Shown piece after piece: positions 34,312 through 41,927 of a stretch of 42,351 bases of DNA. The stretch comes from Desulfuromonadales bacterium (GTDB lineage Bacteria > Desulfobacterota > Desulfuromonadia > Desulfuromonadales > BM103): assembly GCA_027065695.1 (NCBI GenBank), contig JAMONP010000029.1, positions 1 through 42,351 on the forward strand, read 5' to 3'. Position 1 is the first letter of the stretch. The number at the start of each line of letters is the position of its first letter. The position numbers were made by a program, and so were the translations under genes. The notes beneath the pieces were generated by a model. The model was not told where the DNA came from. It did no database searches and saw only the letters and a program-made list of their open reading frames with translations.

Positions 34312-36982
34312 TAGCCTTCTCCTGCACAGCCACACTCTGCTTGAGAATGCGGCAAAAACCTTTTAAATCGCAGTACTTACAGGCGAGCTCAAGATCAACC
34401 GGGTCAACTGCTGCATCACCACGGGCAAAGGCATCTCCCAGGCAAGGCAGAGTTTTTTCCCAATGCTGTAAGATATCTTCAAAGCCAACCCAGCCCTTCT
34501 CTTCAAGCCGTGCTTCAAGTGCGCGTGGTTTTGCTCCCGACCAGGACTCATCTTTACGTGACAGGCCCTTGAATCCGCTTTCTTTCTCTTTACTGCGCAC
34601 CGCGGCGAACATCACGGCCCCCACCTTCTTTTTTGGCAAACCGAGGCAGTATATAGGTAGCTGCGGTTCAGTAATTCGATCATCCAACCATTGCAGAGGG
34701 TCCGGGCGCCCAGTCTTGTAGTCGATAATGGCGCAAGTTCCATCGTCCAGTTCGTCAATTCGGTCAATTCTGGTGCGGATCAGCAGATTGCCAATCTTGA
34801 TCTGATGGCTCTGCTCAGATTCCATGACCCGAAAAGGACCGCGACATCGTTCAAACTCAAGCCACTGTCTCGTCAAAGAGATTAAACGTTGGCGCTCAAT
34901 TTCTCGTTGCCGCGCAGGCAGATCATAACGTCTCTCTTTTTCGAGCCGATCCAAGGCACGATCAACAGCTGCATACAGATGTTGATCAAGTGTCGACTCA
35001 TCTAAAGACAGCAGAGTTTGCTGATCACCAACATTGGCCCAGAACAGTTCAAGAACCGTATGTGCGAGAGTCCCGCGTGACATATTGTCAATACCGATAT
35101 CCGGGACATCCAGGCGCTCTGCCCTGAGGCGGTGATGAGCAAAAGCGCGGAACGGACATAGGGCCTGATCCTTGATGATTCCTGTACCGCCGGTAAATGG
35201 CTTACGAGAGGAAATCGATGGCCCATGATCGTCAGTTGTTTCTTCAAGATCTGGCCGACCTTGCCAGAGAACTCCTGCCGGAGCACATGATTCGGCCAGA
35301 GCGGGCCTGCCCTCTTGAATGTTCGTAATAAACGGGCTGGGACTATGCCTGGCGCCTTTATCCTGAACAGGCCAGCTGAGCACAATATCAGGCGCTGCCG
35401 AGAAAAGACGTGTTGCAACCTGTTCAGCAAAACGATATTCACGCTCTGCATCTGAACGTTTCATACCATGACGCCGCTGAACGGGCAGTGGGATAAAAGG
35501 GTTGGGACTGGCAGGCTTTGGCATGGCGGCATCGTGCAGGCCAAGTATCCAGAGATAATCAAAGTTCAAACCGCTTGATTCAAGTTCACCCAGAACCTGA
35601 ACAGGGGCATCGCCTCCTTCCGGCTGGAACTCCAGGGTGCTGATCATACGCATGAGGATCTTTACCGCCTCAGAACGATCAATAGGTGATGAAACTCCAT
35701 CCAGGCTGGCAAGCTCGCCAAGAGACGATTTAAAATGCTGTACAGCCTGATATTCGCGACTTGACAAACCACGGTTTCCAGGCCATTTGAGCTTGTGGAG
35801 AAAGTTTGCAAAATGTTCTGCCCAGAACCCCGGCAGATGTTTGCCTGATTTACGCAGATCAGCGCTAATTACTCCGACAATATCAATAAAATCGGGAATA
35901 GGAATCGAACGTTCCCTGGATAGCTTTTCAAGGGTTTTCTGCAGACGCGACAGTGGCCAGTCAAACCGTCTGGAGCGACGTAATTCGCGGTCAATTTGCG
36001 CCCGCTTGGAGCCCTCTTCAACATATTTGCCGAGATAAGGCGTACGTAAAAGCCCGCTGATCTCATCATGATCAACCTGCATGCCAAGTCGCAACATACG
36101 CAGGGCGGCATGAATCACTCCTTCCCTGCCCAGATCGCGACCAAGGGAAAGGTTGAATATTTGCGGTACCTCATCACCGGCAAGCAAGGCAGCAGGGTCA
36201 AGCTCTGCAGTTAATATCTGTTCAACCAGAGGCTGATAAACTTCCAATTGCGGCACAACTACACCAATCTTTGCTGTGGGATTTTCGTTGAGGAGACCTC
36301 TTATCCAGCGAGCACACTGGCTGACTTCATCGGCAGGGTCATCTGCTGCGAAACGTTGTCGACTAACATTCCGACACGGCTCAGGATGCCAATGCTCGAT
36401 CTCTGAGCCATGTAGTGTCATGACATTGTTTAAATGCAGCAGATCAGGGGTGATCTCATCGAAACCGGCAAAAATAATTTTTTCAGGCAGGCACAAGCGC
36501 TTTTCAGTAATGGCTTTTGACAATAACCAGGGAATCTCAACAGAATCGTGCCAGTTGTTTTCTGCAGACTGGACCTGCCATTGCTTACGCCAACGGAGAA
36601 ACGCTTCGTGGTCTTCGGCGGCTTCGTCAAGTCCGAATTCAGCAGAATATCTGACTAGCAACTGATGCGCCTGCAAAGCACGCCTGGCCGTCTGTGGAAC
36701 TTGCAGAAGATGGTTACCGGAACGTTCAACATCGGACTCAATGATCAATGTCCATATGTGTTCAAGCTGGGCTTTGTTCAGAAAAACAGGCATTCCAGGA
36801 ATCTGCCACTGGCAACGGGACAGCCAAGCAGACAGGCTCAGGATGTCGGGACGTAACCAGGCAGTAAGTCCTTGCTGCTGCTGATGCAGATCGTACTGTT
36901 GCGACAGGTAACGCGACAGGCGATCATTGACCGTCAGAATAAGACAGCCTTCTTCAGCTGCCTTATATAGTCCTTCATCCAT
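34304..36982 (-). CDS. AddB-like PD-(D/E)xK nuclease (TIGR03623 type)
   Basis: An 892-aa protein resembling the TIGR03623 'probable DNA repair protein' family, which is related to AddB. The N-terminal part is a degenerate helicase-like region. The nuclease domain is bracketed by four cysteines that normally hold a [4Fe-4S] staple: one in ALCPFRAFAHH, three in ACKYCDLKGFC. Between them are the catalytic RIDRIDEL, AIIDYKTGRP and QLPIYCLG. The start at 36982 (MDEGLYKAAEEG) has AGGA 8 nt upstream and lies within the left 67-bp direct repeat. It forms an overlapping pair with the AddA-like gene. Its original upstream neighbour was probably vanZ. Confidence 0.88.
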   Translation of the reverse strand: MDEGLYKAAEEGCLILTVNDRLSRYLSQQYDLHQQQQGLTAWLRPDILSLSAWLSRCQWQIPGMPVFLNKAQLEHIWTLIIESDVERSGNHLLQVPQTARRALQAHQLLVRYSAEFGLDEAAEDHEAFLRWRKQWQVQSAENNWHDSVEIPWLLSKAITEKRLCLPEKIIFAGFDEITPDLLHLNNVMTLHGSEIEHWHPEPCRNVSRQRFAADDPADEVSQCARWIRGLLNENPTAKIGVVVPQLEVYQPLVEQILTAELDPAALLAGDEVPQIFNLSLGRDLGREGVIHAALRMLRLGMQVDHDEISGLLRTPYLGKYVEEGSKRAQIDRELRRSRRFDWPLSRLQKTLEKLSRERSIPIPDFIDIVGVISADLRKSGKHLPGFWAEHFANFLHKLKWPGNRGLSSREYQAVQHFKSSLGELASLDGVSSPIDRSEAVKILMRMISTLEFQPEGGDAPVQVLGELESSGLNFDYLWILGLHDAAMPKPASPNPFIPLPVQRRHGMKRSDAEREYRFAEQVATRLFSAAPDIVLSWPVQDKGARHSPSPFITNIQEGRPALAESCAPAGVLWQGRPDLEETTDDHGPSISSRKPFTGGTGIIKDQALCPFRAFAHHRLRAERLDVPDIGIDNMSRGTLAHTVLELFWANVGDQQTLLSLDESTLDQHLYAAVDRALDRLEKERRYDLPARQREIERQRLISLTRQWLEFERCRGPFRVMESEQSHQIKIGNLLIRTRIDRIDELDDGTCAIIDYKTGRPDPLQWLDDRITEPQLPIYCLGLPKKKVGAVMFAAVRSKEKESGFKGLSRKDESWSGAKPRALEARLEEKGWVGFEDILQHWEKTLPCLGDAFARGDAAVDPVDLELACKYCDLKGFCRILKQSVAVQEKAND

Positions 36983-37043
36983 GTTTTTTGTCCTGATGTT
37001 CATGATATTGGCAGACTACAAACACTATCTGACGGAATATGAC
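36977..37043. repeat. Left 67-bp direct repeat (vanZ 3'-end relic)
   Basis: Identical to 41492-41558 except at one base (T versus C in TTTTTTG[T/C]CCTG). In this copy the vanZ reading would end with TGA inside ATGGATGA, overlapping the AddB-like ATG. No vanZ sequence is found upstream of it. Confidence 0.9.
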
Positions 37044-37053
37044 ACATGCGATC

Positions 37054-37220: not shown

Positions 37221-38405
37221 CTATCCAAGCAATTCCCCATTTAACCAACGAGGTAAAACAGCCTCAAGCTGTTGAAGCTGGCGTCCACAGACAACGCTGA
37301 CATCATTATCACGACAACGTTTTCGGTCTTCTTTTCGCATATCACGGTAACTGACCAACAAGGCGCGTCCATAAGTTCCCCCCATCAGATCACGCAAATT
37401 GTCCAATTTATAAACGACATCATCACCTTTTGCATGACCGCCTTGCAGATTGGCTGTTTTGCACTCGACGATATGTAAGCGGTTGGCGTAGGTGCAAGCG
37501 ACATCCAGTTCATTACTTGTACCCGCTTTGTTTTCAACCCTTATGCCGATGGCTGCATCCCTGACCTTTTTCTTGCGACGCAACTCTTCGATCAGGCTGT
37601 AGACATACTGTTCCAGCCAACCACCTTGAACCAGCCTGCGTGAATCTTCACCGGCAAAGCCTAAACGATTGTCCGTAACGGATAGATGATCAGCCTGCTG
37701 AAACAGTTCCAGCAAGGCAACGAAGTGCGTATCTCTCAACAAAGAGTTCTTGATAGTACACCAAAGGTGATTTTTCGCTTCCCCGGCCAGATAATTCAGG
37801 CTCGCCAAAGATCTCTGCCATTGTTCAATGTCGGAGACAAGGGCTTGATAAAGCTGTCTGTTTTTCGCTTGCAACATCGGCCTGGCAACAGCAACCACCT
37901 TGTAACCGTAACACTTCAGACAAGTTTCAACTTTCAGCAAGTCAGGTAAAGGCACAGATTTTTGTGGCTTCGAAAGTGAGACCATAGCGCCATTTTCTGA
38001 ATCGACATAGAATACCGGCAAGTCGAAATCGCGAAAAACGCCAAAAGCCCCGAGAGCCATCACCTTGGTGCCACCAGTAGCATTCAAAGCCAGTCTGTGA
38101 TCAGAATATGCTGTGATAACATGCAGTACCGATTCACGGATATCCTCAATCCGGTAGGCGCGAACTGACCATAGTGACACACGACAGCCGGCATCATGCA
38201 GCAATGCTTTAAGTCTTTCTGCTTCTTTAGCCATCTTCGGCGTAACCAGGAGAACGACCTCACGCGGCCTGATCGCCACATCGAGAACAGGCAGTAAGTT
38301 GGGCAGCAATTGATGCGACACCAGACAGATATGAACCTCAGCACGGCAAACATCAATATCGCTCCGTTCCTGAAGAGTTTTCTGGTTGTCGGACAAATTG
38401 CTCAC
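37221..38405 (-). CDS. CARF-domain PD-(D/E)xK nuclease, Card1/Can2 (DUF1887) type
   Basis: A 394-aa protein of the DUF1887 family. The N-terminal CARF domain has REVVLLVTPKM and the ligand-loop motif NATGGTK at residues 108-114, which in relatives binds cyclic oligoadenylate made by Cas10. The C-terminal nuclease has EQYVYSLI, NELDVAC (Asp301) and HIVECKT (Glu314, Lys316), all catalytic residues of the fold. Relatives (Card1, Can2) nick DNA and cleave RNA once activated. Start is GTG at 38405, 1 nt after the preceding stop. No Cas10 is in the window, so the signal would have to come from elsewhere in the genome. Confidence 0.87.
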   Translation of the reverse strand: MSNLSDNQKTLQERSDIDVCRAEVHICLVSHQLLPNLLPVLDVAIRPREVVLLVTPKMAKEAERLKALLHDAGCRVSLWSVRAYRIEDIRESVLHVITAYSDHRLALNATGGTKVMALGAFGVFRDFDLPVFYVDSENGAMVSLSKPQKSVPLPDLLKVETCLKCYGYKVVAVARPMLQAKNRQLYQALVSDIEQWQRSLASLNYLAGEAKNHLWCTIKNSLLRDTHFVALLELFQQADHLSVTDNRLGFAGEDSRRLVQGGWLEQYVYSLIEELRRKKKVRDAAIGIRVENKAGTSNELDVACTYANRLHIVECKTANLQGGHAKGDDVVYKLDNLRDLMGGTYGRALLVSYRDMRKEDRKRCRDNDVSVVCGRQLQQLEAVLPRWLNGELLG

Positions 38406-38406
38406 A

Positions 38407-38637
38407 TCAAATCTCCGTCCCAGTCAAGCAGGGGAAACTGAGGCAGATTATCTTCAGATCATGATCCTGTGGTGAGAATGTCAAAGCCGGTTCAATCTGC
38501 TGGCGAACTACAGAGCGAGAACCTCGCGAACAAAAGTAGACGATGTATTCAGGTTGTTGGGAGTTCAGACTATGGATAACCGGCTGTGGTGAACCACCAA
38601 CAGAAACAATCAGGAGCTTTTTTGTTGAATCAGGCAT
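38407..38637 (-). CDS. Short CARF-like protein (76 aa), fragment or minimal sensor
   Basis: I start at 38637 (MPDSTKKLLIVSVGG), with GGAGG 4 nt upstream; a start at 38652 overlapping the cas2 stop is possible. The opening KKLLIVSVGGSPQPVIHSL and EYIVYFCSRGSRSVV resemble the N-terminus of CRISPR-associated CARF proteins of the TIGR02710 type, which usually have several hundred residues and an effector domain. Here it stops after 76 residues, and the next gene starts 1 nt after the stop. Whether it is a degenerate remnant or a real half-CARF protein working with the nuclease is not known. Confidence 0.55.
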   Translation of the reverse strand: MPDSTKKLLIVSVGGSPQPVIHSLNSQQPEYIVYFCSRGSRSVVRQQIEPALTFSPQDHDLKIICLSFPCLTGTEI

Positions 38638-38648
38638 AGAACCTCCGG

Positions 38649-38927
38649 TCATAATATTGCAAAAGGTCTGGTCTCGCAGTGATTGACATTCATCCCAATG
38701 GCCAGCCAGCTTTCGTCACACTGTTTACACAAAGGGAAAAACTTTACGCCATCTTCAGACCACTCCAACTGTGCCTCAATCCGATGACGCATTTCTTTAA
38801 AACGCACCGGGGTCATTTCGACCTCAAACACCGACAGCTGCAGGCGCAGTCCATAATCTTTCATGACCTTAGCAACCCGATAGAGACGACGAGGGTCTGC
38901 TATATCATAAGCAACCAACATTTTCAT
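38649..38927 (-). CDS. cas2: CRISPR adaptation protein Cas2, second copy
   Basis: A 92-aa Cas2: ferredoxin-fold start MKMLVAYDIADPRRLYRV with the conserved Asp in YDI, YGLRLQLSVFEVEM, and LCKQCDES near the C-terminus. The start shares a base with the TGA of the other cas2 (TGATG). It is only distantly like its neighbour. Cas2 dimers bridge two Cas1 dimers for spacer integration; two Cas2 types in one operon suggest a heteromeric complex or two alternative complexes. Confidence 0.88.
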   Translation of the reverse strand: MKMLVAYDIADPRRLYRVAKVMKDYGLRLQLSVFEVEMTPVRFKEMRHRIEAQLEWSEDGVKFFPLCKQCDESWLAIGMNVNHCETRPFAIL

Positions 38928-39202
38928 CAGCACACCAGATACTCAAGAGTGGTCACTTTAAGACCTTGACCAGAGACAACCACCTTGTTCTGACAGCGGT
39001 TACAAATTCGATAAATCAACAGGGAATCAGTATCAGGATCAATACAGCTGCCCGCCATTCTGGCAATCACAGCCAAGGCATCCAGGTCGACTTCGCATTC
39101 AAAAATCGATTTCTGCGTGTTTAAGCCATACTCCTTGAGAAAACGATGGAATTTTGCTCTTTGTCGGTTCGATGAAATATCGTAACTGATAATGGCAAGC
39201 AT
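38927..39202 (-). CDS. cas2: CRISPR adaptation protein Cas2, first copy
   Basis: A 91-aa Cas2: MLAIISYDISSNRQRAKFHR, then YGLNTQKSIFECEVD, and ICNRCQNKVVV near the end. Asp8 of YDI is conserved. It starts 5 nt after the cas1 stop and overlaps the second cas2 by one base, so the four or five genes form one tightly packed operon. Confidence 0.9.
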   Translation of the reverse strand: MLAIISYDISSNRQRAKFHRFLKEYGLNTQKSIFECEVDLDALAVIARMAGSCIDPDTDSLLIYRICNRCQNKVVVSGQGLKVTTLEYLVC

Positions 39203-39207
39203 AACTT

Positions 39208-40383
39208 TTATTTCAACAAAAGGGGATGATATTCTGCGAGTTCACCAGCAATGACTCTGCGGTATAGACGCGCCTGATAAACCAGAGATTCACCGTAAGT
39301 CATCCTTTTTTCTGCCATTGGATGAAAGAATTCTTTCTGTAATTTTTTCTCAAAAGCTGTCAGCACTCGTTTAAACGCAGCGGAAGTCAAACGCACCGGG
39401 TATTTGGAAAGGTCACTGGAATCTGTTGGTTGTGTTAAAACCTGCTGTGACGGCAGGTCAAACATATCTTCAGCATCAGAGTTGCTGATCCGACCGAGCG
39501 GATCACTGACAACTTCATCGAGAATATCTACCACAGGTTTGCTCCTGGTATCCTTTTCATCATCCCCAGCATTGTCATCTTCTTTGATATCTATCTGGAA
39601 ATCACCCTGTTTAAGGCTTTTTAAATTAAATAGCGATAAAGTCAGGCTGTCGGCAAGGATAGTTCGAAATTCTTCGACCAGGTCAAGCGGTAAAGCATGG
39701 CGGCCATAATCAAGACGATGCAGAACGCCAGGGTAAGGATCAAGACCTGCCATACGCACTGCGGCATAGACGCGATTAATCAGCAGCGTGTAAAGCAGCG
39801 ACAAAACCGAGTTGACCGGATCAGTTGGTGGTCGCCGAACTCTGCGGGAAAAGCCAAAATCATTATCCAGCCCCATACGAAAACCGGTAAAATATGCCGA
39901 TGTGGCACTACCCTCAAGGCCCATCAGTGCTGCGGTATTCTCAGCTTCTGGCAGTTTATGCAGACAATTTTTCAACTGAGCAAGACAAGGATCAATTTTT
40001 CGTTGTTTCCGCGTTCTTCTGATCCGCTGCAGAATAGTCTGCATATTCAGCAGTTTGCCACGCACAATCTGTTGCGCCAAGCAGAGGCAGAATTTTTGAT
40101 CAGCAACCATCTGAAATTGTTTCTGGCGCAGGAAGACATTTTTCGGCTCGACTGTGGCAAAACGACCAACGTAGCGGCCATCCAGTCGCAGAAAAACTGT
40201 ATCAATCTGTTCTTTAAGTAAAAAAGAGCGGGCCGAAGCGGTCAATTCTATCCGGCCACAGATCACCAACTGTTCGAGCTTGTAGGTAAACAAGGTATGA
40301 TGCGTAGCGCCGTCCTTTTTAACCAGAAGGTGCCGCCCTTCTTTAACGATTTTAGATCCTTGGGTTGTCACATAAACAATCAT
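39208..40383 (-). CDS. cas1: CRISPR integrase Cas1 with an acidic insertion
   Basis: A 391-aa Cas1. The metal-binding residues are present: Glu157 in LEGSATSAYF, His222 in GVLHRLDYGRHALPLD and Asp234 in LPLDLVEEF. The N-terminal beta domain starts MIVYVTTQGSKIV. Compared with the usual 300-340 aa there is a roughly 70-residue insertion, rich in Asp and Glu, in the C-terminal helical domain after KQGDFQI and before YPVRLTSAAFKRVL. The start at 40383 follows GGAGG; an upstream in-frame start would pre-empt that site. A consensus-like promoter lies 20-50 bp upstream. Confidence 0.92.
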   Translation of the reverse strand: MIVYVTTQGSKIVKEGRHLLVKKDGATHHTLFTYKLEQLVICGRIELTASARSFLLKEQIDTVFLRLDGRYVGRFATVEPKNVFLRQKQFQMVADQKFCLCLAQQIVRGKLLNMQTILQRIRRTRKQRKIDPCLAQLKNCLHKLPEAENTAALMGLEGSATSAYFTGFRMGLDNDFGFSRRVRRPPTDPVNSVLSLLYTLLINRVYAAVRMAGLDPYPGVLHRLDYGRHALPLDLVEEFRTILADSLTLSLFNLKSLKQGDFQIDIKEDDNAGDDEKDTRSKPVVDILDEVVSDPLGRISNSDAEDMFDLPSQQVLTQPTDSSDLSKYPVRLTSAAFKRVLTAFEKKLQKEFFHPMAEKRMTYGESLVYQARLYRRVIAGELAEYHPLLLK

Positions 40384-40406
40384 CAAATCCTCCGTTATTT
40401 TCGGCA

Positions 40407-40435
40407 ATTATCGGAGTTATGCTTGTTTATGACAA
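40407..40435 (-). promoter_or_regulatory. Promoter of the cas1 operon
   Basis: Minus-strand TTGTCA (40430-40435), 17-bp spacer, GATAAT (40407-40412). A CTTGT/ACAAG inverted repeat with a 5-nt loop overlaps the -35 element and might bind a regulator. Apart from this and the vapBC promoter, 40384-40609 has nothing; no CRISPR-like repeats are seen. Confidence 0.65.
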
Positions 40436-40609: not shown

Positions 40610-40843
40610 ATGGATACTGGGTCAGTTTTTGTCAACAATCGAACTCAAGCGGTACGCCTGCCAGCAAAAACCCGTTTTCCTGATAATGTAAAAAAGGTTG
40701 TCGTACGCGTTTTAGGAAAAGATCGGGTACTTTCCCCTGTGGAAAATGTTTGGGATAGCTTTTTCCTCTCCAATGAACGCGTCAGTGATGATTTCATGGC
40801 CGAGCGCGCTTCTCAGGATCAACAGGAAAGGGAAGCGTTCTAA
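40610..40843 (+). CDS. vapB: VapB antitoxin
   Basis: A 77-aa antitoxin. The AbrB/MazE-like DNA-binding part is seen in GSVFVNNRTQAVRLPAKTRF, and the C-terminal acidic tail (DDFMAERASQDQQEREAF) would wrap around the toxin. AAGGAGG precedes the ATG, and its stop overlaps the vapC start. It represses its own promoter in most family members. Confidence 0.87.
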   Translation: MDTGSVFVNNRTQAVRLPAKTRFPDNVKKVVVRVLGKDRVLSPVENVWDSFFLSNERVSDDFMAERASQDQQEREAF

Positions 40844-41250
40844 TGTTGAAGTACATGCTCGACACCAATATTGTTATCTATGTGATCAAACGCCGTCCGA
40901 CTGAGGTCTTGGAAGTCTTTAACCGGCACGCCGCTCAGATGTGTATCAGTTCAATCACCTTTGCCGAACTCATTCACGGCGCAGAAAAAAGTGCCTGGTT
41001 GGAACATAACCTGCGTCAAGTTGAGGATTTTATTTCTCGATTAGAGGTATTGGACTATGGCACGAAAGCGGCTTCGCATTATGGCGAAATCCGTGCTGAT
41101 ATGGAACGCAAGGGCACACCTATCGGAGTCAATGATCTTCATATTGCCGGACATGCCAGAAGCGAAGGATTGATTATGGTGACCAACAACCTCAGGGAAT
41201 TTAAGAGAGTCAAAGGTTTGCGCCTGGAGAACTGGGTGAGTCAGCTTTAG
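40843..41250 (+). CDS. vapC: VapC toxin, PIN-domain RNase
   Basis: A 135-aa PIN-domain nuclease. Acidic catalytic residues are intact: Asp7 (MLDTNIVIY), Glu42 (ITFAELIHG) and Asp98 (GVNDLHIAGHA); TNNLREFKRVKGL is the typical C-terminal block. Most VapC of this type cut initiator tRNA-fMet. It is intact with its antitoxin and, being inside the putative island, could stabilise it by post-segregational killing. Confidence 0.9.
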   Translation: MLKYMLDTNIVIYVIKRRPTEVLEVFNRHAAQMCISSITFAELIHGAEKSAWLEHNLRQVEDFISRLEVLDYGTKAASHYGEIRADMERKGTPIGVNDLHIAGHARSEGLIMVTNNLREFKRVKGLRLENWVSQL

Positions 41251-41344: not shown

Positions 41345-41489
41345 TAACTTACATAAGTTACCGGCGTCCCGCATGAACAGCCACAATTATATGCCCCCAC
41401 ATTTAGCAACAACACCATCACCGAATCAAGAAAACCACTCAGGTTAATCGTCAGAAGAAGATCCAATCATCTGACGAACATGGCGTCCC
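41345..41489. repeat. Palindrome and repeated GGCGTCCC words at the island end
   Basis: TAACTTA/TAAGTTA with a 2-nt loop is at 41345-41360. GGCGTCCC occurs at 41363-41370 and again at 41482-41489, 2 nt before the right direct repeat. The arrangement recalls REP-type elements linked to Y1 (RAYT) transposases, but no transposase is present. The rest of 41251-41489 has no supported gene. Confidence 0.35.
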
Positions 41490-41927
41490 TTATCCATGTT
41501 TTTTGCCCTGATGTTCATGATATTGGCAGACTACAAACACTATCTGACGGAATATGACGCAGGCAAGAAAAACACCCACAGCATCAGCAAACAGATCCCA
41601 CCATTCAGCAGTCCGTCCCGTTTGCATCAAAAACTGCATAACTTCAAGCAAGGCACCGAAACAAACTGCCGCCAAACCTGCATATAAGCATATTTTACCT
41701 GGGCTAAGAGACAGTGAGAGCAAGTATTGCGCAATCAGGAGAGTCAATAGAGCGTAAGCACCAGCATGTAGCAATTTGTCCCATCCCAAAATACCGGGGA
41801 GTTGTGGTGGAGATGAGGTTAATGATAACCATAGGATAGCAACAGCCCATACAAGAGGAGCGAACAATCGCATGATCTTTTTGGCGGTATTTGAATTTGA
41901 AACTTTGAGGTTGTCTTTAGTTGTCAT
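41490..41927 (-). CDS. VanZ-family membrane protein
   Basis: A 145-aa protein with three or four membrane helices and the VanZ-type motif WDKLLHAGAYALLTLLIA, followed by GALLEVMQFLMQTGRTAEWWDLFADAVGV. The true VanZ gives low-level teicoplanin resistance; most relatives have unknown roles. Its last 22 residues are encoded by the right 67-bp repeat, and the stop is TAA formed at the island junction, where the left copy would use TGA. The ribosome site is poor. A probable transposase gene points away on the plus strand just upstream. Confidence 0.82.
   Translation of the reverse strand: MTTKDNLKVSNSNTAKKIMRLFAPLVWAVAILWLSLTSSPPQLPGILGWDKLLHAGAYALLTLLIAQYLLSLSLSPGKICLYAGLAAVCFGALLEVMQFLMQTGRTAEWWDLFADAVGVFLACVIFRQIVFVVCQYHEHQGKKHG
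41492..41558. repeat. Right 67-bp direct repeat (3' end of vanZ)
   Basis: Counterpart of 36977-37043, same orientation, one mismatch. It encodes the end of the VanZ protein. Confidence 0.9.

Follow-up and report, generated by a model that had tools for sequence, protein, structure and literature searches.

One cas1 gene followed by two cas2 genes of different sequence raises the question of whether a CRISPR integrase can be built with two kinds of Cas2. Such an arrangement had been predicted at positions 38649–39202 of a 42,351-nucleotide stretch of DNA from a Desulfuromonadales bacterium; this whole stretch is referred to here as the window. The canonical integrase consists of four Cas1 and two Cas2 monomers, as described in the available text of PMC9048733. 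The window resembles this canonical system in that cas1 adjoins cas2 and both Cas2 proteins have the Cas2 fold and the aspartate of the YDI motif, but it differs in having two unlike cas2 genes for a single cas1.

Two Cas2 genes beside one cas1

The genes of the module and its downstream neighbours, all on the minus strand, are as follows.

39208–40407, minus strand: cas1, 399 amino acids (PF01867, E = 1.2e-81)
38927–39202, minus strand: cas2A, 91 amino acids (PF09827, E = 1.6e-20)
38649–38933, minus strand: cas2B (PF09827, E = 3.9e-20)
38407–38652, minus strand: stump of a CARF-HEPN (csm6/csx1) gene, 81 amino acids (PADLOC profile match, E = 4.3e-11)
37221–38405, minus strand: Card1/Can2-like gene encoding a CARF domain and an endonuclease, 394 amino acids

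The original prediction of two dissimilar cas2 genes in tandem was confirmed, and two full Cas2 proteins are encoded directly after one cas1. Both score far above the curated cut-offs, with 73.5 (Cas2A) and 72.2 bits (Cas2B) for PF09827 (cut-off 23.8) and 54.2 and 46.1 bits for TIGR01573 (cut-off 24.5). The motifs that had been pointed out are indeed present, namely YDI in both proteins, YGLNTQKSIFE and YGLRLQLSVFE, and the CxxC motifs CNRC and CKQC; that the copies are otherwise different also holds, with an identity of 20–21%. Across 34 aligned pairs, no A or B protein has lost the aspartate of YDI or either cysteine of CxxC (34 of 34 in each case). The window's two proteins also retain the columns that are invariant in A and B alike (YDI, G, S, F, D, CxxC, G), and a degenerate second copy was on this ground rejected as far as the Cas2 core is concerned. 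The C-terminal columns of the window's Cas2B differ from those of the rest of the B family.

AlphaFold2 single-chain models, built from input alignments of seven sequences, have the Cas2 fold in both cases, with a mean pLDDT of 83.2 for Cas2A and 81.3 for Cas2B, and the best Foldseek matches of both models are solved Cas2 proteins. Approximately the last 20 residues are uncertain in both models, as could be anticipated for strands that pair between the subunits of a dimer. Profiles, single-chain models and core residues thus all identify both copies as Cas2, and the absence of the Cas2 fold from one copy, which would have spoken against the original prediction, was not observed. Scores far above the Pfam cut-off, the Cas2 fold and the recurrence of the ordered pair described below together indicate that the tandem is not due to chance.

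On the minus strand the junction of the two genes reads TGC TGATG AAA, so that the stop codon of cas2A and the ATG of cas2B share one base. The one-base overlap that had been proposed holds if cas2B starts at this ATG (position 38927, 92 amino acids); from the GTG at 38933 the protein would have 94 amino acids. Downstream, the Card1/Can2-like protein matches PF09002 (E = 1.4e-29) and PF23400 (E = 1.2e-13) in Pfam and CARF_PDDEXK (E = 6.3e-106) in PADLOC. The best PADLOC match of the 81-amino-acid ORF covers positions 1–45 only of a 401-position CARF-HEPN profile, and the ORF is therefore read as a csm6/csx1 stump; Pfam and NCBIfam searches with it gave no match. In one relative (L071), a Csm6 gene encoding 417 amino acids lies just upstream of cas1.

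Recurrence of the pair and its type III setting

Duplicate cas2 genes beside one cas1 had been called uncommon, and this was not borne out. Of 395 genomes sampled from the window's phylum, 198 have a PF09827 match, and when the positions of matches from searches with A and B alignments were joined, at least 44 tandem pairs were counted in at least 43 of the 395 genomes. This census used the A-alignment matches and 112 of approximately 155 listed B-alignment matches, the omitted ones being taken for single Cas2 proteins of other subtypes. The window's genome is counted, as is a degenerate pair in G432 (L051); left out are G165, where the pair is split by a contig end, and G259, G302 and G414, where A and B lie apart. 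On reading the ORFs, a cas1 match followed by two cas2 genes was seen in 43 loci, made up of 25 that include the window and L006, eight (L056–L063) and a further ten (L118–L127). In two loci (L046 and L122) cas1 is visible only as a piece, of 123 and 167 amino acids, respectively, and in L064 the cas2 pair is present with no cas1 match in the stretch examined. Two irregular ORFs were also observed: in L051 (1755–2090, G432) part of the middle of Cas1 continues into a Cas2A that lacks the first strand, which gives the degenerate pair, and in L049 (2–1207) an apparent primase-polymerase end is joined to the middle of a Cas1 lacking its N terminus, which looks like a fusion or an assembly fault.

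When the genome_contigs set was scanned with Cas1 of the window, a single locus, L006, was retrieved from a Syntrophales MAG, and in it a Csm6 HEPN gene, cas1, cas2A and cas2B follow one another in this order. Compared with the window, Cas1 of L006 is 52% identical, Cas2A 46% and Cas2B 47%. Both Cas1 proteins keep E165, H230, D242 and E245, which we take to be the active-site residues, and the window's Cas1 has a C-terminal extension common to many of its tandem-cas2 relatives.

Spread of the pair via viruses or plasmids was considered and found no support: no pair was seen in the viral-contig loci retrieved or among the plasmid matches listed. In the viral_contigs set no relative of the window's Cas1 or Cas2B was found, and wider Cas2 alignments gave three viral loci with one Cas2 match each. 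Cas2A and Cas2B of L034 match 56 and 100 of 72,556 plasmid records, respectively, all with less than 60% identity. Among the matches listed (56 of 56 for A and 60 of 100 for B) there was no adjacent cas2 pair, and where positions were compared the two queries had met one and the same gene.

The carriers of the pair are mostly type III, and the flanks tested are type III-A. A match to the Cas10 family PF22335 was found in 31 of the 34 carriers searched; this family also matches in the E. coli control, and therefore we rely only on the 29 of 34 with E < 1e-20, the weak matches in G434 (5.5e-6) and G313 (1.8e-6) being probably not Cas10. As compared by eye, a strong Cas10 match lies on the contig of the pair and within approximately 13 kb of it in 24 of the 34. 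The three carriers with no PF22335 match are the window's genome (G000), G243 and G219, the last two of which are 81 and 82% complete. Like type III-A (Csm) systems, pair-carrying relatives have Csm1, Csm3, Csm4 or Csm5 together with Csm6 or Card1, and the window keeps its Card1-like gene and the csm6 stump. According to NCBIfam these are Csm3, Csm4 and Csm5 in L071, Csm1 in L072, Csm5 in L073, Csm3 and Csm5 in L074 and Csm5 in L075, and Pfam identifies a Csm1 domain in L022; Csm6 adjoins cas1 in L071 and L073 and Card1 does so in L072. Repeats ending in GGGATTGCGAC or its complement were found in seven of the nine flanks examined (L022–L024 and L070–L075), the L070 flank having a different repeat and the L024 flank none that was found.

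There is also a likeness to CAPP modules, in that seven tandem-cas2 relatives (L021, L022, L023, L024, L070, L074 and L075) encode a CAPP-like primase-polymerase with TPR directly upstream of cas1. In L023 this gene is split over two ORFs, and the L075 protein scores above the cut-off set by NCBIfam for CAPP type A1. Unlike CAPP modules, the window's cas1 has no adjoining primase-polymerase ORF, as judged from the ORFs and Pfam, and L006 and L071–L073 also have the pair with no such gene among the neighbours seen. In the text of PMC8211822 that is available, the CAPP protein binds Cas1 directly and Cas2 indirectly, and two Cas2 proteins are not mentioned for the CAPP system.

A few published reports touch on two cas2 genes. 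In Desulfococcus multivorans a second cas2 lies in one CRISPR region, approximately 13 locus tags from the first cluster (PMC5109826), Methylacidiphilum strain V4 has two Cas2 proteins with no position given in the accessible part of the paper (PMC6688271), and elsewhere two cas2 genes are counted per replicon or genome (PMC4406477, PMC11525543); the gene in PMC6371046 is, in the part available, a broken cas2 and not a pair. An adjacent pair of unlike cas2 genes is not described in the accessible portions of PMC9048733, PMC4406477, PMC6688271, PMC8211822, PMC10415136, PMC5109826, PMC6753606, PMC11525543, PMC6371046, PMC13203232 or PMC12231136, and our literature search, whose scope mostly excluded subscription papers, found no description of one. 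Within the literature accessible to this search, the unlike cas2 pair represents a variant of the Cas1–Cas2 adaptation module for which no prior description was found, and the type III adaptation modules that it distinguishes as a group were likewise not found described.

Lineages of Cas2A and Cas2B and a possible heterodimer

Profiles for A and B were built from 25 pairs, later rebuilt from 34, and applied to pairs that had not been used to build them. In nine of nine such pairs (L056–L064) the A profile gave the higher score for the first gene and the B profile for the second, narrowly so for the first gene of L062–L064. With the rebuilt profiles the order was assigned correctly in seven of ten further loci; the misses are L120, L123 and L124, and these three, which are all the misses among the 19 test pairs, have an RT-Cas1.

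The phylogeny of both Cas2 proteins, which had been proposed as a check, was read unrooted, with support given as SH-aLRT/UFBoot. In a tree of 103 Cas2 sequences, A and B each form a clade within the window's group of 19 loci (100/100 for A and 87.9/98 for B), and the trees of Cas2A, Cas2B and Cas1 agree in this group. An unrooted tree of the 25 pairs placed all A in one clade (78.4/94) but not all B, and the 103-sequence tree recovered neither an all-A nor an all-B clade. That all A share one origin, and likewise all B, was not supported by the latter tree, and clades are claimed within groups only. A recent local duplication was rejected, given the identity of 20–21% and the grouping of each copy with its counterparts from other genomes. 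Distance matrices correlate with r = 0.92 for A and B, 0.96 for A and Cas1 and 0.92 for B and Cas1 (n = 23). When Cas1 is allowed for, the partial correlation of A and B is 0.39 (p = 0.015) in the window's group (n = 19) and 0.52 (p = 0.002) with the window left out (n = 18), where the p values serve as a guide only because tree distances are not independent.

Cas2A and Cas2B are old, distinct and co-inherited beside one cas1, and this is what a heteromeric Cas1–Cas2A–Cas2B integrase would predict. The reading that we favour, with a probability of roughly 50%, is that cas1–cas2A–cas2B is a type III-A adaptation module with two old and unlike Cas2 proteins, whose integrase would use a Cas2A–Cas2B heterodimer; the heterodimer, its asymmetry and its use are all inferred. 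One Cas2A and one Cas2B would pair to form the centre of the integrase and would link two Cas1 dimers, which would give the Cas2A–Cas2B complex two different sides. Correct spacer direction by a symmetric Cas1–Cas2 complex is often credited to outside factors. Two different sides could tell the leader side of the repeat from the spacer side, and one of them could be the docking site for a partner, for instance a primase-polymerase or reverse transcriptase. Given the primase-polymerase neighbours and the RT fusions, we speculate that two unlike Cas2 proteins might hold a copying enzyme at one side of the complex. The recurrence of the pair makes it testable whether asymmetry is built into an integrase, and many natural A–B pairs are available for reconstitution.

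Co-inheritance is, however, also expected of two homodimers encoded in one operon, which counts against inferring a heterodimer from it. Other points against the favoured reading are the lack of all-A and all-B clades in the 103-sequence tree, the three RT-Cas1 loci that break the A/B rule, the loci in which A and B lie apart or only one Cas2 is found, and the missing Cas10 and RAMPs in the window's own genome. According to this second explanation, Cas1 would associate with either a Cas2A dimer or a Cas2B dimer, and the resulting integrases would differ in substrate, for example in which prespacers they accept or which array they serve. That the Cas2 core is preserved in both paralogues would be consistent with homodimers, as would the two identical Cas2 subunits of the known complexes (PMC9048733, in its available text) and the strong self-association of Cas2 from a CAPP system that has a single cas2 (PMC8211822, likewise). 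The fixed gene order, the near-constant pairing and the A–B correlation adjusted for Cas1 nevertheless fit one complex somewhat better, and we regard two separate homodimers as unlikely.

It has also to be considered that the two proteins might divide the labour, one Cas2 serving as the bridge and the other doing something else, for instance acting as a nuclease or regulator, or as an adaptor that links the neighbouring primase-polymerase. The mean net charge is +2.4 for A and −1.4 for B (n = 34), with ranges of −4 to 8 and −6 to 7 that overlap, and in the 34 pairs A and B conserve different columns, chiefly in the first helix and the strand that follows. These differences would suit a division of labour; they also fit unlike partners in a heterodimer, without proving anything. 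In L070 (G259), a B-like gene precedes both the primase-polymerase gene and cas1, with A after cas1, and this position of B, apart from cas1 and A, points in the same direction as the charge. On the other hand, the core is the same in both Cas2 proteins, Pfam searches gave no domain gained or lost in either, and the window, L006 and L071–L073 manage with pairs in their primase-polymerase-free neighbourhoods; a division of labour therefore seems improbable, even more so than two homodimers. A and B also lie apart in G302 and G414, which belong to the family of G259, and in G361 one B-like Cas2 was observed (L129, 6396–6923) with no cas1 in the 13 kb read.

Three loci from two genomes combine RT-Cas1 with tandem cas2 genes (L120, 223–2830; L123, 2980–5565; L124, 2090–4061), and in these the RT domain is fused to Cas1, being cut by the contig end in L124. 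The pair as such is a likeness between the window and RT-Cas1 modules, but the window's Cas1 has no RT domain according to Pfam, and A and B of the RT type group together (71.5/74 in the 103-sequence tree). The RT-Cas1 cas2 pairs may perhaps have come from a separate duplication. The second Cas2 of the RT-Cas1 loci was observed to lack the CxxC motif. A wider proposal would be that an obligate Cas2A–Cas2B heterodimer defines a class of type III adaptation modules whose integrases have chemically different ends, used for polarity or for placing a copying enzyme, and that the class arose from more than one cas2 duplication, in the main and the RT-Cas1 groups; we put this forward tentatively and consider it less probable than the favoured reading for the window's module. 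Against a heterodimer rule, L065–L069 manage with one Cas2. These loci were observed to encode a Cas1 of 349 amino acids and a single Cas2 for which the A and B profiles give similar scores, and the loci may represent the state before duplication.

The module in the genome of the window

The genome of the window (G000) comprises 3.39 Mb in 108 contigs and is 99.95% complete. The tandem pair is its sole PF09827 match, and ten other genomes of the same genus have no match to this family. Unlike a type III-A (Csm) locus, the module has neither a Cas10 (no PF22335 match in G000) nor RAMP subunits (no PF03787 match in G000, with control matches in four of 14 genomes) to go with it, and the array type of its relatives was not found: tandem repeats were absent from the window, and no paired GGATTGCGAC repeat ends were detected in G000 in a genome-wide search that covered this repeat type.

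Between vanZ and addB, 4.4 kb of DNA containing the cas module and a VapBC-like pair is flanked by a direct repeat.

36970–37049, strand not assigned: left copy of the 80-bp direct repeat, at the start of addB
41485–41564, strand not assigned: right copy of the 80-bp direct repeat, at the 3′ end of vanZ

The two copies are identical at 75 of 80 positions, the right one supplying the end of vanZ and the left one the start of addB, and they resemble the ends of an integrated element; no recombinase gene was found between them. In four of five loci from the same genus (L080, L081, L083 and L084) vanZ adjoins or overlaps addB, which represents the empty site, and in the fifth (L082) no separate vanZ ORF was seen. 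Given this empty site in relatives and the flanking repeat, the module looks like an insertion, and it looks like one that lost its effector or never brought one.

We therefore have to consider that the window's copy no longer functions and is what remains of an inserted type III locus, an explanation that is compatible with the heterodimer reading of the module and that we regard as fairly probable. It is consistent with the lack of RAMPs and Cas10 in a nearly complete assembly, with the results of the repeat searches and with the reduction of csm6 to 81 amino acids. The distances of the window's proteins to the group also exceed those of the members among themselves, for Cas2B (2.03 versus 1.26) and for Cas1 (2.06 versus 1.50). 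Against a relic, cas1, both cas2 genes and the Card1-like gene are open, the presumed catalytic residues of Cas1 are kept, the genome-wide search concerned one repeat type only and an isolated Cas6 match is present on another contig. On balance, the module looks orphaned in this genome, judging from its gene content, and its activity there is doubtful; with no effector and probably no array, it is probably idle or decaying.

The isolated Cas6-family gene lies on contig C21 (L117, 7430–8434), where it has ordinary neighbours and no repeats were found. A further CRISPR locus of the same genome, on contig C61 (L025, 76000–86155), is type I-E-like, with its own cas1 and a Cas2 of the family PF09707, and has at least 22 repeats near the contig end. 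The VapBC-like pair next to the window's module (40610–41250, plus strand) consists of a PIN-domain protein (E = 6.7e-20) preceded by a weak match to a MazE-like antitoxin (E = 0.016).
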